From NCBI RefSeq assembly GCF_001458735.1, contig NZ_CZQA01000001.1:806001-870000 (forward strand): a stretch of 64,000 nucleotides of DNA. Direction: 5' to 3'. The position numbers and the translations under genes are program-made. Each line of letters begins with the position of its first letter. Position 1 is the stretch's first letter. Below are positions 35,742-41,499 of this stretch, piece by piece. A model generated the notes under the pieces. It did no database searches, was not told where the DNA came from, and saw only the letters and a list, made by a program, of their open reading frames with translations. The stretch comes from Candidatus Nitrospira nitrosa (GTDB taxonomy: Bacteria > Nitrospirota > Nitrospiria > Nitrospirales > Nitrospiraceae).

Positions 35742-36263
35742 TCATGTTTCCACCTCCGCGATGTGCAGGTTGGGACACCAATCCACTTCCGCGCGGCGCG
35801 CCACTTCCAAGAGCTGACTCGACATCGGAGGCGCGCCTTGATCACGTGACAGTCCTACACACCGCGAGCAAATAAACCGACAGTGGGACAAACAGGCTTG
35901 CTCAGAACATCCTCTGTCAGCGCCAACTTTCTCCGCCTGCTGAAAACAGTACGCTTTCGCGTCCGAGGCACTCAGGCTTTCTTGATAGCAGCGGAGGGCC
36001 GCATAGAAATTGATCCGGCTCACGACGGGTCGTCCTTCGAGTGTGATGTGGACATCGTGCAGGTCCCAGGCCTCCTCAATCATTCGCGCCACGATCGCCA
36101 CCGACGTCGGAAAGTCGTCAAAGGACGCCACATACTCAGCCCCTTGTTCATCTCCCTCGGCGTCACAAACAGGCGCCATCCGGATCAGCCGTAACAGAGT
36201 CGGGGCATCTACAACCTGTGCCTCAGGAATTGCGATTGAGAGATGCACCAGCAGCTCCTGCAA
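35742..36263 (-). CDS. Hypothetical cysteine-rich protein
   Basis: 173 residues. The first 90 residues read as a soluble alpha/beta domain (MQELLVHLSIAIPEAQVVDA, FPTSVAIVARMIEEAWDLHD). The C-terminal part is strikingly Cys-rich: C106, C119, C124, C128, C132, C135 and C163, in the order C-x4-C-x3-C-x3-C-x2-C followed by WCP. This spacing could hold a zinc or iron-sulfur site. I do not recognise the family. The gene starts 32 bp beyond the T tract of the candidate small-RNA terminator on the same strand. Read-through of that terminator would place it under the sigma-54 promoter. Otherwise no promoter is apparent. Confidence 0.6.
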   Translation of the reverse strand: MQELLVHLSIAIPEAQVVDAPTLLRLIRMAPVCDAEGDEQGAEYVASFDDFPTSVAIVARMIEEAWDLHDVHITLEGRPVVSRINFYAALRCYQESLSASDAKAYCFQQAEKVGADRGCSEQACLSHCRFICSRCVGLSRDQGAPPMSSQLLEVARRAEVDWCPNLHIAEVET

Positions 36264-36294
36264 GAAATAATTCGGTAGCCAATACTGCCCGTAG

Positions 36295-36338
36295 AAAAAA
36301 CAATGAGAGGGCCACTCTCACCTGTGACCCCCTCATTG
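36295..36338 (-). terminator. Intrinsic terminator of the candidate small RNA
   Basis: A 15-bp stem (13 Watson-Crick and 2 G-U pairs on the minus strand; arms 36324-36338 and 36301-36315) closes an eight-base loop AGGTGAGA and is followed at once by six T (36300-36295). On the opposite strand two positions become A-C mismatches, so it acts for minus-strand transcription. It lies between the sigma-54 promoter and the Cys-rich protein gene. Confidence 0.85.
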
Positions 36339-36449
36339 CGACAATGTGGCGGCCGGGACAGCCGCTCACAATGAGGTGGACTCTGCTGGATAGCGATAGG
36401 GCGAATCACTATCCAACTCTCAGAGAGAGCGAGCTCTCTCTGCGCTGTC
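36295..36449 (-). ncRNA. Candidate sigma-54-dependent structured small RNA
   Basis: On the minus strand, about 155 nt between a consensus -24/-12 promoter and an intrinsic terminator fold into four consecutive hairpins. H1 (36421-36442): CAGAGAGAG/CTCTCTCTG with a CTCG loop. H2 (36387-36415): an 11-bp stem with loop TCGCCCT. H3 (36342-36373): GCGGC/GCCGC plus a lower stem with one mismatch, loop TGTCCCG. H4: the terminator. In H2 and H4 all base pairs form only in minus-strand RNA (three G-U pairs); the plus strand would have A-C mismatches there. No open frame of note lies inside. The CCC loops of H2 and H3 could pair with G-rich ribosome sites. The RNA is unknown to me. Confidence 0.65.
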
Positions 36450-36459
36450 CCAACTGTTC

Positions 36460-36475
36460 AGCAACTGTCGTGCCA
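36460..36475 (-). promoter_or_regulatory. Sigma-54 (RpoN) -24/-12 promoter
   Basis: The minus strand reads TGGCACGACAGTTGCT, matching the consensus TGGCACG-N4-TTGCW at every position, with GG and GC ten bases apart. The predicted start is about 36449, just before hairpin H1 of the small RNA. Two sigma-54 activators are encoded within 7 kb upstream on the same strand, the nearest ending about 560 bp away. Confidence 0.85.
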
Positions 36476-37035
36476 CTCCTGTTCGTCCTTTCTCATTGAG
36501 TTATTCGCACGGCAGAAGAGCAGATGAATATTTTCCAGCGATCTCGATGTCAGCTCCTGCTACAGGGGGGACTCCAGGCTCTTGGACAGTGATGGACTAA
36601 ATTTCCCCATTCACTCGTATCTCCTTCGCGTCTGTGCTCCACACCACTGAACCTCCGCTCCCCGAATGAAGGGGAGAAAGGGGGCATACAAGCCATCACG
36701 ACCCATTGCAGCTTGCGGGATGCGAACACTACAGACTGAAGGCAGATATCGTTCCGTTGCCGTCTGATTCGCACTCCACATTCATGGATGCATGAATAGA
36801 TCCGAACAATGCGTACAATTGAGCCGGTGAAAAACTGTGGTGGGTGAACCCTACCCGATCGTTGCGAAGATCCAGAAGTTCAGGTGGCCTGATCGACCAA
36901 TCCTCACGTGGCGGGATTTATAAAGCCAATAGCGAACCGATCGAGCACAGCAGTGCGTGGGCTCTGATGTGATGATGTCATTCTGTGGAGTGTGGTGACC
37001 CAAGAAAGGAAATGGACAGGGGGAGTAACTGATAC
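36476..37035. promoter_or_regulatory. Region upstream of the sigma-54 promoter with dyad symmetries
   Basis: About 560 bp without genes. Two dyads could be enhancer sites for a sigma-54 activator: ATTCATG-GATG-CATGAAT (36780-36797) and CTCCCC-GAATGAA-GGGGAG (36658-36676). They lie about 200 and 320 bp upstream of the promoter, the usual range for such sites. A longer nested inverted repeat (TGCGAA...TTCGCA around CAGAC...GTCTG) spans about 36719-36771. Function is inferred from position only. Confidence 0.4.
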
Positions 37036-38463
37036 CTATTCGATGCTATACGCGCGAAGTTTGTTATAGAGGCTCGCTCGGCTGATTCTGAGTAATTTGG
37101 CTGCTTTCAATCGATTTCCTGCCGTTTTTTGCAGCGCATCAACGATTCGCGTGCGCTCTGTTTGAGCCACCGCCCCACGCGACGCCGAGCGTAAACTTTC
37201 GTCCTCTTCTCCCAAAGATTGGTCCAGCAGATCCTGACAAGGCAGCGATGGGCCGACCGTCGTCACCACAGCCCGCTCGATATAATGCTGTAATTGCCGG
37301 ACATTCCCCGGCCAAGGAGCGTCCCGTAACAACCGCAAAGCCCGCTCATCCACGGATCGCACCGGCTGATGATGTCGGGCACAAGCCCCCGAGACGAAAT
37401 GCCGAACAAGCAATGGGATGTCGTCCCGCCGCTCCCGAAGCGCCGGTAAATACAATGGGAGGACAGCTAATCGATAATAGAGATCCTGACGAAATGTTTT
37501 GGCTTTCACAAGTTCGGCCAGATCTTTGTTTGACGCCGAGATGACCCGCGCATGGATCTTGACGGTTCGGGTCCCACCCACCGGCTTGATCTCGCCCTCT
37601 TGTAGAACACGCAGTAATTTGGCTTGAAAAGTCGGCGTCGTGTCGGCTATCTCATCCAAGAAGATCGTGCCTCCGTCGGCCTCATCAAACAAGCCTCGCT
37701 TGTTCATCACTGCTCCGGTGAAGGCTCCCTTCACATGTCCAAATAATTCGCTTTCGAGCAACGTCTCAGGCAATGAGCCACAGTCAACCACAACAAACGG
37801 CCGATCCCTTCTGGGACTGAGCGCGTGAATCGTTTTCGCCAGAAGTTCTTTCCCTGTTCCGCTCTCGCCTTGAATGAGGACGGTCGCCGAGCTCTCCGCA
37901 ACCAGACGAGTCATGTCGAAGAGCTGCTGCATGATCGGACTTTGACCGATCAATTCACCAAGACCATTCGCAAGAGGTGTGGTAGGGCTGTCCTCCGCCG
38001 TAGCTGGCTGAACAGACTTCAATGTCGGCTGGAAGAGCACCAACATGGAGATGACTGATCCCTGTGCATCCGTTAACGGAAAGGCCTGCTGCATCCCACA
38101 GGCCGTGCCGTCACCTCCCCCCGAACAAGAAACGCACTGCACCTCAGGCGTCTCGAACACTTTGTTCGCCGGGCAGCCCCCACAGGGATCGGTTCGCTGG
38201 GCAAAGGCTTCATAGCATTTGGCGTGAGGCCGGCGAGTGGAGGTATTCTTCTGCACTGACCAGGCTGCTTCGTTCGCGTAGACGACATTGAAGGATCGAT
38301 CCATGACCGCCACCCGATCGGACAGACCTCCGGCCACCTGCTTGATCGCTTCGACTCGCGCAGTAATGATGGGATCTTGGGGTACCGGGTTGCTGGAGCG
38401 TTCTGGGTCAGACAAGGTGGTCTCGTCCCTTAGGGCCAGTCTTTCGTGTCTCGCAACCAACAA
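37036..38463 (-). CDS. Sigma-54-dependent activator with Cys-rich PAS domain
   Basis: 475 residues. There is no receiver domain. A PAS domain (about 45-145) carries six cysteines: C83, C94, C97, C110, C113 and C122 ([20 protein letters not shown], then [15 protein letters not shown]). The AAA+ module has Walker A GESGTGKE (199-206), the sigma-54-contact loop GAFTGA (246-251) and [21 protein letters not shown] Fis-type HTH closes the protein ([20 protein letters not shown]). It should activate RpoN promoters in response to a signal sensed by the PAS domain, perhaps redox or metal through the cysteines (inference). A receiver-only gene ends 24 bp upstream, and the only consensus sigma-54 promoter I found lies 560 bp downstream. 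Confidence 0.93.
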
Positions 38464-38487: not shown

Positions 38488-38883
38488 TCACATCCCTTCG
38501 TGGTTGAGCAATTGTTGCACACAGTTCTTCAGCTCCGCAATATGAACCGGCTTGTCAAAGTAGGCGTTCGCGCCCGCTTTAAGTATCTGCGCTTTTAATC
38601 TTGCATCGCCGAACGCAGTCATAACGACAATCGGGCACTTCGGCACGACAGTCCTCAACCGACTGATGTAGTCATCTCCCCCTCCCGGCATCCGTAAGTC
38701 GGTCAGGATCGCATCCGGCACGGATTGCCGAACCGCTAGAAAAGCCTCATCACCGTCCCGTGCTTCGTGGAGTTGATACCCCATTCCACAAAACTCATCA
38801 CACAATAGACTCCGCATCTCTCGGTCATCTTCGACAATCAGGAGTACCGCCGTCTTTCCATTTGCCACGGTCGCCATCCTCAT
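38488..38883 (-). CDS. Single-domain response regulator
   Basis: 131 residues, receiver only. Acidic pocket in AVLLIVEDDREMRSLLCDEF, acceptor aspartate in PDAILTDLRMPGGGDDYISR, threonine in PIVVMTAFGDARLK and lysine in AYFDKPVHIAELK. No output domain. It lies 24 bp upstream of the PAS-type sigma-54 activator on the same strand, so it may be co-transcribed with it and act through protein-protein contact. The cognate kinase may be the membrane PAS kinase immediately upstream. Confidence 0.93.
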   Translation of the reverse strand: MRMATVANGKTAVLLIVEDDREMRSLLCDEFCGMGYQLHEARDGDEAFLAVRQSVPDAILTDLRMPGGGDDYISRLRTVVPKCPIVVMTAFGDARLKAQILKAGANAYFDKPVHIAELKNCVQQLLNHEGM

Positions 38884-39150: not shown

Positions 39151-41499
39151 TCACCTCTTACTGTCGGCCATCGGCAGAAGAATCGTAAACGTCGTCCCCA
39201 TCCCTTCCTGACTGTCAACGGCGATGGATCCCTGATGTTCTTCAATAATGCCCTTGACGACTGTCAGTCCTAACCCTGTCCCCTTGCCGAATTCTTTCGT
39301 CGTGAAAAAAGGATCAAAGATCTTCTTGATCACCTCTTGTGGGATGCCGTGGCCCGTATCAGCAACGGTGAGTCTCACCATCTGTGGTTCAGGGGCCAGG
39401 CCGACACGGAGTATCCCGCCATCCGGCATCGCATGTACGGCGTTCATGACGAGGTTGATCATGACTTGGCTCATCTGGTCCGCATCGGCCAAGACCATAG
39501 GGCACGGATCGACCGACGGCACCTCAAGCTGAATTCGGCTTCGTGCAAGACGTTCGTGAAACATCTCGAGACTGTCTTCAACCACTTGCCTCAGATCAAG
39601 CGCACAGCGCTCCGGCGTTTTCCGTCGTGCAAAAGAGAGCAACTGGTTCATCACCCTCGTAATCCGCTCGACTTGGGTAATGATGGTCTGGAGGCCTTTC
39701 TTGATCGGCTCGTCCGTGACCCGATCCATGAGATATTCCGCACGGCCAAGAATGACGTTCATCGGAGTCCCGATTTCGTGGGCCATACCCGAGGCCACCG
39801 TACCGAGCTCGGCGATGCGTTCGGTTTTTCGTAACTGTTCTTGTAGTCGCTTCCGTTCACTGATATCCCGCAACATGACGAGGATCGCCGGACCTTCTTC
39901 ATCCACGAATCGCGCCGCGCTGACTTCTGCGTCCACGGATCTTCCGTTCAGGGTGACGATCTTCTCCTCGAGCATGGGCACTTGTGCGCGGCCTTCCACC
40001 AACTCGTGGATATGCTCTCGAATCGCCGAGTGATAATCAGGATGGAACAAGTCCAGAACGGATCGTCCCAGGATCTCGCCGGCCTTCACAGCACCGAACA
40101 GCTTGATCGCCTGGTCGTTGGCGAAGAGGATACGGTCCCCTCGAATCACCACAATGGCGTAGGGCGACACAGCGATCAGCCGTCTGTAGCGTTCTTCACT
40201 TTGCCGCAACAAGTGCTCCGCTCGCTTCCGTTCCGTGATGTCGGTGACGAACCCTTCCAGGTAACTCAGGGTGCTGTCCGTGGCATAAATCCCTTCACCC
40301 CGTTCCCAAACCGACTTGACCTCCCCCAGCTTGGTGAGGATGCGGTAGGTCGTTTCGTACGGGCGATGCTGCGCCACCGCTGCCTGAATTTCTTGCCACA
40401 CTCGCTCACGGTCACCCGGATGAGTATTGTCGCCATACGAGATGGATCGTTGTACAAGGTATTCCTGGGCGGTGTACCCCGTCAGATCGGACACGCCCTC
40501 ACTGACATACTCGAAGGTCCAGTCACGATCGTTTTTGCAGCGATACACAAAGCCCGGGAGATTGCTCATCAGGGTTGAGAGTTTCCGCTGACTCTCTTGG
40601 TGGGCTTCTTCGGTCCGCTTGCGGTCGGTGATGTCTCTGAGGATGACGGTATAGTATTTCTGATGTTCTACGGCGATAAGGGAGATTGCCGCTTCGATCG
40701 GAAACTCTTCTCCATTCGACCGAAGCCCCATCACCGTCCCCAGTTTCCCCATCTTTCGGCTCGTCGCGCCGGATTGGCCGAACTCACGTATATGGTAGCG
40801 GTGACCTTCGCGATACTGAGCGGGCAAGAATCGATCAAGATGCCGGCCTACCGCCTCATGAGCGGAGCAGCCGAACATCTGCTCGGCCGCATGGTTGAAC
40901 AACACCACATGCTGAGCTTCGTCAACCGTGATGATTGCATCCATCGCAGATTCAATGATGCCTTCGAGCCTCAGCTGGCTGACCAGGAGCTGTTCTTCCG
41001 CTTCCTTGCGACCGACGACGGCACGGACCGCCTCCCGATCCGCGTCGTCACGTGCCTGTTGCGCCTCCATCATCAACCCCTCGGCATGGGCTCGCTCCAC
41101 ACGTTCCGACATCAGCTCTCGTTCTGCCTGCACTGATTCTTGTTGCAGCCGTCTGAAGTGAATCAATCCCATGGCTAAGATCCACAGAACAGAGGTTCCC
41201 AATGTACGATTGAGCACGCCATAGGGGAGCGAACTACCGGGAGGCTTGAAAAACAACCCCAGCCAGAGGAGGCCGGTGGCAAGGACACAAAAATAGAGTG
41301 ATTCTTGCTCCTTCGACCTGAACACTGTGAGCAACAGCGGAATGACGTAGAGGATCGACACCGCAATTCCCACTGGAGTCAGCAGGTCGACAACAAAGAT
41401 GCCGATCGTGAGGAGTGGGATCGCCCAATGCACGACACGCATGACTAGACGGTCGACATCCTTCATGTGATCGATCCCGGCCTGAAGCGGGCTGTCCAT
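39151..41499 (-). CDS. Membrane-bound multi-PAS histidine kinase
   Basis: 782 residues. The first 120 contain four membrane helices (VVHWAIPLLTIGIFVVDLLT, GIAVSILYVIPLLLTVFRSK and two more), then a coiled segment and three PAS/PAC modules (about 175-290, 305-425, 435-550). A HisKA domain follows with the phospho-histidine in ELGTVASGMAHEIGTPMNVI, then an HATPase (ADQMSQVMINLVMNAVHAMP, DTGHGIPQEVIKKIFDPFFT, GKGTGLGLTVVKGIIEEHQG). The layout is that of NtrB-like kinases partnering NtrC-type regulators. Its gene starts 34 bp after the NtrC-type regulator gene on the same strand, which is probably its partner. Confidence 0.95.
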   Translation of the reverse strand: MDSPLQAGIDHMKDVDRLVMRVVHWAIPLLTIGIFVVDLLTPVGIAVSILYVIPLLLTVFRSKEQESLYFCVLATGLLWLGLFFKPPGSSLPYGVLNRTLGTSVLWILAMGLIHFRRLQQESVQAERELMSERVERAHAEGLMMEAQQARDDADREAVRAVVGRKEAEEQLLVSQLRLEGIIESAMDAIITVDEAQHVVLFNHAAEQMFGCSAHEAVGRHLDRFLPAQYREGHRYHIREFGQSGATSRKMGKLGTVMGLRSNGEEFPIEAAISLIAVEHQKYYTVILRDITDRKRTEEAHQESQRKLSTLMSNLPGFVYRCKNDRDWTFEYVSEGVSDLTGYTAQEYLVQRSISYGDNTHPGDRERVWQEIQAAVAQHRPYETTYRILTKLGEVKSVWERGEGIYATDSTLSYLEGFVTDITERKRAEHLLRQSEERYRRLIAVSPYAIVVIRGDRILFANDQAIKLFGAVKAGEILGRSVLDLFHPDYHSAIREHIHELVEGRAQVPMLEEKIVTLNGRSVDAEVSAARFVDEEGPAILVMLRDISERKRLQEQLRKTERIAELGTVASGMAHEIGTPMNVILGRAEYLMDRVTDEPIKKGLQTIITQVERITRVMNQLLSFARRKTPERCALDLRQVVEDSLEMFHERLARSRIQLEVPSVDPCPMVLADADQMSQVMINLVMNAVHAMPDGGILRVGLAPEPQMVRLTVADTGHGIPQEVIKKIFDPFFTTKEFGKGTGLGLTVVKGIIEEHQGSIAVDSQEGMGTTFTILLPMADSKR

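Follow-up and report, generated by a model that had tools for sequence, protein, structure and literature searches.

A sigma-54-associated structured RNA of Nitrospira, probably an undescribed regulatory RNA

What is produced from the intergenic DNA behind a sigma-54 activator gene of Candidatus Nitrospira nitrosa, and does it act on its own or as part of a longer transcript? The locus lies in a 64,000-nucleotide stretch of the genome that was analyzed as a whole (the window), and a first-pass annotation of its letters had proposed a sigma-54-dependent small RNA with four stacked hairpins on the minus strand. Homologous loci were compared in order to assess the promoter, the fold, the surroundings and the possible mode of action of this RNA (Table 1).

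Table 1. Features of the locus and of associated units
Feature	Position	Strand	Basis or remark
Structured non-coding RNA, 155 nt	36295..36450	-	Fold z, covariation, homologues; predicted 3' end within T tract
Sigma-54 -24/-12 promoter, TGGCACGACAGTTGCT	36460..36475	-	Conserved in 21/21 homologues and 11/11 held-out copies
Hairpin H1	36421..36442	-	Compensatory changes among relatives
Hairpin H2, conserved loop UUCGCCCU	36385..36417	-	6 pairs changed on both sides
Hairpin H3, conserved loop UGUCCCG	36349..36365	-	Covariation analysis, alignment
Hairpin H4 (terminator stem), near-invariant loop AGGUGAGA	36301..36338	-	
T tract (six T) of intrinsic terminator	36295..36300	-	
Enhancer site 1, about -180, GGTTCAGTGGTGTGGAGC	36636..36653	-	Degenerate here, 8/12 by hand count; 10-11/12 in relatives
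Enhancer site 2, about -113, TGTCCAAGAGCCTGGAGT	36571..36588	-	10/12 matches
Downstream ORF, 168 aa, Cys-rich, no Pfam match	35742..36248	-	Orthologues at most other loci
Sigma-54 enhancer-binding protein, likely activator	37036..38463	-	Sigma54_activat 6e-68, AAA+, Fis-type HTH (HTH_8)
Single-domain response regulator	38488..38883	-	Pfam Response_reg; syntenic
PAS-rich sensor histidine kinase, first of conserved regulatory block	39151..41499	-	Pfam PAS/HisKA/HATPase_c; syntenic in relatives
Three-way-junction RNA	G000:C9:533846-533970 (L123); also L106, L099, L109, others		
Lone amoC between activator and RNA	L037, L038, L040, L046, L048, L049, L089, L104		

Promoter, fold and transcribed strand

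The full-consensus -24/-12 element that had been proposed was recovered on the minus strand, reading from 36475 to 36460, with the -24 GG and -12 GC at a spacing of 10 and a close fit to TGGCAC-N5-TTGC. The exact pattern TGGCAC-N5-TTGCW is rare, with seven sites in the 4.42-Mb genome against two for a reversed control. The GG-N10-GC core was kept in each of the 21 homologues whose sequence extends over the promoter. It was also present in each of 11 full-length held-out copies, which came from 10 further genomes and none of which had been used to define the model or the motif. The predicted start, a purine at approximately 36449/36450, would lie about 12 bases past the element, as first described.

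All four hairpins, together with the six T behind H4, were located within the roughly 180 bp for which they had been claimed. The 155-nt minus-strand RNA had a predicted folding energy of -84.2 kcal/mol (z = -7.6 against dinucleotide shuffles, 0 of 200 as good), compared with a z of only -3.8 for the plus strand of the same stretch. Given this difference, the G-U asymmetry between the strands is considered to be real, and its earlier reading, that it marks the transcribed strand and reflects selection on RNA structure, agrees with the strand-specific covariation. Using RNAalifold on a 20-sequence alignment, 40 consensus pairs were obtained in five helices, and 95.9% of cells were paired. Changes on both sides were seen in 12 pairs and 39 cells (counts that ignore phylogeny), so that the compensatory changes for which the first-pass annotation had called are present in homologous loci. 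The covariation score was 0.283 compared with 0.202 in shuffles (0 of 500), and slid partners reached at most 0.101. The loops of H2, H3 and H4 were conserved or near-invariant and the stems variable.

Of 20 copies, 19 had a terminator hairpin with a calculated energy between about -21 and -30 kcal/mol and the other reached -13; a T-rich tail followed the hairpin in all but approximately one copy. A GC-rich hairpin and then a U tract, the form of an intrinsic terminator, is thus conserved in all but about one copy. In agreement with the earlier statement that the stretch holds no reading frame, no short conserved frame with a ribosome-binding site was found across the homologues. Taken as a whole, a sigma-54-dependent, strand-specific structured RNA under selection is strongly supported.

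Distribution among Nitrospirota and link to amoC

A DNA search returned homologues in 27 same-genus genomes including the window's own, one copy each, and matched divergent homologues solely at the terminator hairpin. A covariance model built from 20 aligned sequences, a search that had been suggested with the original proposal, raised this to 29 same-genus genomes and one chance-level match in another genus. In a wider draw, the model matched 33 of 396 Nitrospirota genomes, all within one genus of 169; the RNA was absent from the 168 other genera sampled. Carriers make up about half of the same-genus genomes, with single syntenic copies behind the kinase, regulator and activator genes. Pattern matches in named records were in Nitrospira genomes, several of which are known comammox metagenome-assembled genomes (e.g., UW-LDO-01). 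One genome (G181) had two full copies, L179 and L180, which lie on separate contigs and both have the promoter and the twin enhancer. A record titled Leptolyngbyaceae cyanobacterium SM1_4_3 (L157) contained a Nitrospira-type hairpin sequence, for which a misbinned contig or a chance match is possible.

Among divergent relatives (G009, G040, G049, G050 and G383), the promoter and H4 stay, the middle differs and a gene again lies behind; the common core is therefore considered to be promoter, leader, H4 and gene. Relatives that keep the hairpins and lack the -24/-12 element had been named as grounds for rejection. The promoterless copies found, which lie directly behind amoC in G012, G028 and G038, have also had their 5' half lost or damaged, with H4 staying, an outcome in favor of the original proposal. 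A repeated terminator module was considered as well and rejected: matches to the H4 loop pattern were essentially limited to one per genome, at this locus, which does not fit a repeat family.

No match to Rfam was obtained at the gathering score, and none up to an E-value of 5 on 36200-36600. The first-pass annotation had known of no RNA of this shape here, and no earlier description was found in the literature searched. The same literature, with most subscription papers outside reach, held no report of a small RNA in comammox Nitrospira; small RNAs were removed during preparation in one Nitrospira transcriptome study. Judged from these comparisons, the RNA is probably regulatory and previously undescribed.

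Most carriers have amoC (comammox), and the window's genome has four amoC genes. Counting any form of the RNA, amoC was present in 27 of 29 carriers vs 16 of 30 non-carriers (Fisher p 0.0009, uncorrected for phylogeny, with many of the 59 genomes incomplete). For full-length copies, p was 0.018. This suggests a link between the RNA and ammonia oxidation, although shared ancestry alone could give the same pattern. In support of the link, eight genomes (G058, G051, G001, G024, G038, G012, G028 and G015) have a lone amoC separating the activator from the RNA.

Twin enhancer, activator and multicopper-oxidase unit

The end of the activator gene, at 37036, lies 561 bp upstream, consistent with the 560 bp given originally. 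Its orthologue was found in 53 of 59 same-genus genomes including the window's own, nearly always once. The N-terminus of the protein is PAS-like with a Cys cluster (KCYEAF...DPCGGCP...CVSC), and resembles a PAS-linked redox or metal sensor.

By aligning the upstream DNA, an inverted repeat, TGTCYA-N6-TRGACA, was found twice, some 180 and 115 bp ahead of the -24 element, as would be fitting for an AAA+ activator. Of the 20 testable RNA promoters, all have site 2 and 17 have site 1; a good site 1 is missing from the window, where it is weak, and from its two closest relatives. Held-out copies had site 2 in 11 of 11 cases and site 1 in 10 of 11, and such an enhancer pair was seen in none of 4000 shuffled 220-mers.

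Across the genus, the gene for a giant multicopper oxidase of about 1600 aa also has a sigma-54 promoter, and the two enhancer sites recur there with unchanged spacing. Roughly 220 bp behind the activator, in the same slot, canonical members have a different sigma-54 promoter, a three-way-junction RNA and then this oxidase; in the window's genome, the unit is unlinked, on contig C9, with enhancer sites at 12/12 and 10/12. Since the same sites and spacing precede both promoters, the neighboring PAS-type activator is likely the regulator of both units, with the twin sites acting as its enhancer. Its identity is drawn from the adjacency to the RNA as well as the shared enhancer. The twin enhancer of the RNA and multicopper-oxidase promoters is new here.

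The three-way-junction RNA (GCTGGTGARGG...GGGTGATTTTGGACCGGCCTCCGAATGACCC...CCTTCACCAGC) is near-invariant and was found in 56 of 59 same-genus genomes. At the loci examined, it lies behind a sigma-54 promoter with the twin enhancer and before the oxidase, and six loci searched against Rfam gave no match. Its loop CCGGCCTCCG has a complement, CGGAGGCCGG, further downstream; in several genomes the loop is also complementary to the GGAGGCC ribosome-binding region of the gene. The three-way-junction RNA is a candidate new cis-regulatory RNA. In common with the four-hairpin RNA, it has the sigma-54 promoter, the twin enhancer with its spacing and the form of a structured leader. Unlike the four-hairpin RNA, it has an unrelated sequence and fold and a longer distance to the gene, and no comparably strong hairpin-plus-U-tract terminator was seen. 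A third enhancer pair, the second site of which has just 8/12 matches, accompanies a sigma-54 promoter (AGGCACGGTCATTGCC) in front of a 354-aa ORF whose leader is structured (G000:C10:393594, L137). This unit is likely a third member of the same regulon.

Terminated leader or free small RNA

A same-strand ORF begins 20-140 nt past the T tract in nearly every copy (250 nt in one, L179), distances that are approximate given that start codons were set by eye or as the first start codon. The terminator thus stands shortly before a gene, as in attenuators, although the same-strand position is partly due to shared synteny and does not amount to 30 independent observations. In the window, the likely start is a GTG at 36248 that is preceded by AGGAG and lies about 46 nt past the T tract, and several copies have gaps of only about 24 or 42 nt (about 24 nt in G039 and G055). 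Such short gaps leave no room for a promoter, and the downstream genes therefore presumably depend on read-through. No single gene product goes with the RNA, because the gene itself varies (the 168-aa Cys-rich protein, its paralogue, a HalD-like 2-oxoglutarate oxygenase, a 331-aa protein or an outer-membrane-like protein).

With the terminator so placed, a leader or attenuator fits at least as well as a small RNA. We consider it moderately probable that the RNA forms the leader of a sigma-54-dependent transcription unit and has a built-in terminator; its terminated form may also act as a small RNA. Promoter, enhancer, structure, terminator, genus restriction and position before an ORF are supported by sequence comparison, from which we infer actual transcription, the identity of the activator, partial read-through, any partner and the function proposed here. 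The PAS-type enhancer-binding protein would bind the two sites upstream of the -24 element and remodel the sigma-54 polymerase, with transcription starting near 36450. The first 155 nt or so would fold into H1-H3, and at H4 and the U tract much of the transcription would stop and release a compact RNA, with a read-through fraction transcribing the gene beyond. The conserved loops of H2, H3 and H4 may contact a trans partner, protein or RNA, that would determine how much transcription terminates or reads through, or how active the released RNA is. As mechanism, we prefer partial termination or a trans factor acting at these loops; an antiterminator was sought in addition. Across the family, the H4 5' arm paired with RNA upstream of it no better than in shuffles; such pairing is possible in G000 and G032 (z -1.9 and -2.8) and not conserved. 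An 11-nt complementarity in the window (CCUCAUUG/CAAUGAGG) was rejected on the same grounds. Simple riboswitch-type attenuation is therefore not supported.

The main rival is a free, trans-acting small RNA resembling Qrr, which would be induced by the activator and fully terminated at H4, with the C-rich H2 and H3 loops and/or the H4 loop pairing with mRNAs and the downstream gene a mere neighbor. The strong conserved terminator, the conserved loops on covarying stems, the constancy of the RNA while its neighbors change and the lack of a conserved antiterminator all favor this reading. Against it, nearly all copies have a same-strand ORF close behind, several of them with no space for a promoter, which weakens it as the sole explanation. 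Hfq was also not detected: the 99.99% complete genome had no Pfam match, and the same model matched 5 of 14 control genomes. Nor was there a convincing target signal in 14 candidate 5' regions of the genome itself, and no consistent loop pairing was seen with local genes, the four amoC copies, the multicopper oxidase or the third enhancer site. The first-pass annotation was thus right that a structured RNA has a sigma-54 promoter and that the CCC-bearing loops are conserved; its pairing of these loops with ribosome sites found no support in the small set of 14 mRNAs, and with the same-strand ORF so close a free trans-acting form is the less probable reading.

Less probable still is a leader that senses a ligand or protein, with H1-H3 as sensor and H4 as expression platform for the downstream operon. 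Invariant loops and a fixed architecture before a gene would suit it, as would the even more conserved structured multicopper-oxidase leader that the same activator apparently drives. However, H1-H3 are simple hairpins and lack the junction usually seen in aptamers, no ligand common to the downstream genes is obvious and an alternative antiterminator pairing is not conserved, and we regard this reading as improbable. Short frames starting with GTG or ATG cover H3-H4 in many copies and could point to a regulatory peptide; these frames vary among copies, have no ribosome-binding site ahead and are broken by an H4 indel in G003, and with the conserved frame absent a peptide is highly improbable. 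Hairpin-rich intergenic DNA can also arise as repeats, and the stretch could be a cluster formed by chance, a mobile hairpin element or an untranscribed structure at the DNA level. Single syntenic copies in nearly all genomes, covariation with strand preference and the co-conserved promoter and enhancer, all read from sequence comparison, make this very unlikely, the least probable of the readings.

The terminated leader was also compared with known systems. Qrr RNAs end in an intrinsic terminator, GlmY/GlmZ are structured and linked to a sigma-54 promoter, as is the present RNA, and attenuators (T-box, trp and riboswitch leaders) are 5' leaders under terminator control. The attenuators resemble this RNA in having a structured leader and an intrinsic terminator a few tens of nucleotides before a same-strand gene, and differ from it in that here there is no conserved antiterminator, the promoter is of the sigma-54 type and the downstream gene changes. 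The Vibrio Qrr small RNAs are sigma-54-dependent and activated by LuxO/SypG (PMC10162802). The likeness consists of the sigma-54 promoter, the enhancer-binding activator and a short structured RNA; here, there is no sequence or Rfam match, no Hfq detected, a same-strand gene close behind and another phylum. GlmY/GlmZ are small RNAs of enterobacteria (PMC7073468); the present RNA differs from them in having no Rfam match and no evident processing or RapZ-like partner.

A broader picture is unlikely as a whole and is offered as speculation. One PAS-type activator would govern an RNA-centered Nitrospira regulon of sigma-54 transcripts with dedicated, unrelated structured leaders. In nearly all members the multicopper oxidase would follow a near-invariant three-way junction; the four-hairpin terminated RNA would occur mainly in ammonia oxidizers, its released form acting in trans without Hfq to coordinate copper and ammonia-oxidation genes.

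Comammox Nitrospira, in which ammonia is oxidized fully to nitrate, are important in the global nitrogen cycle, and little is known of how their ammonia oxidation is regulated. The present result is a conserved, testable candidate regulatory RNA with a promoter, an enhancer and a likely activator, which is tied to a copper-protein regulon of the whole genus and adjoins a lone amoC in a subset of genomes.
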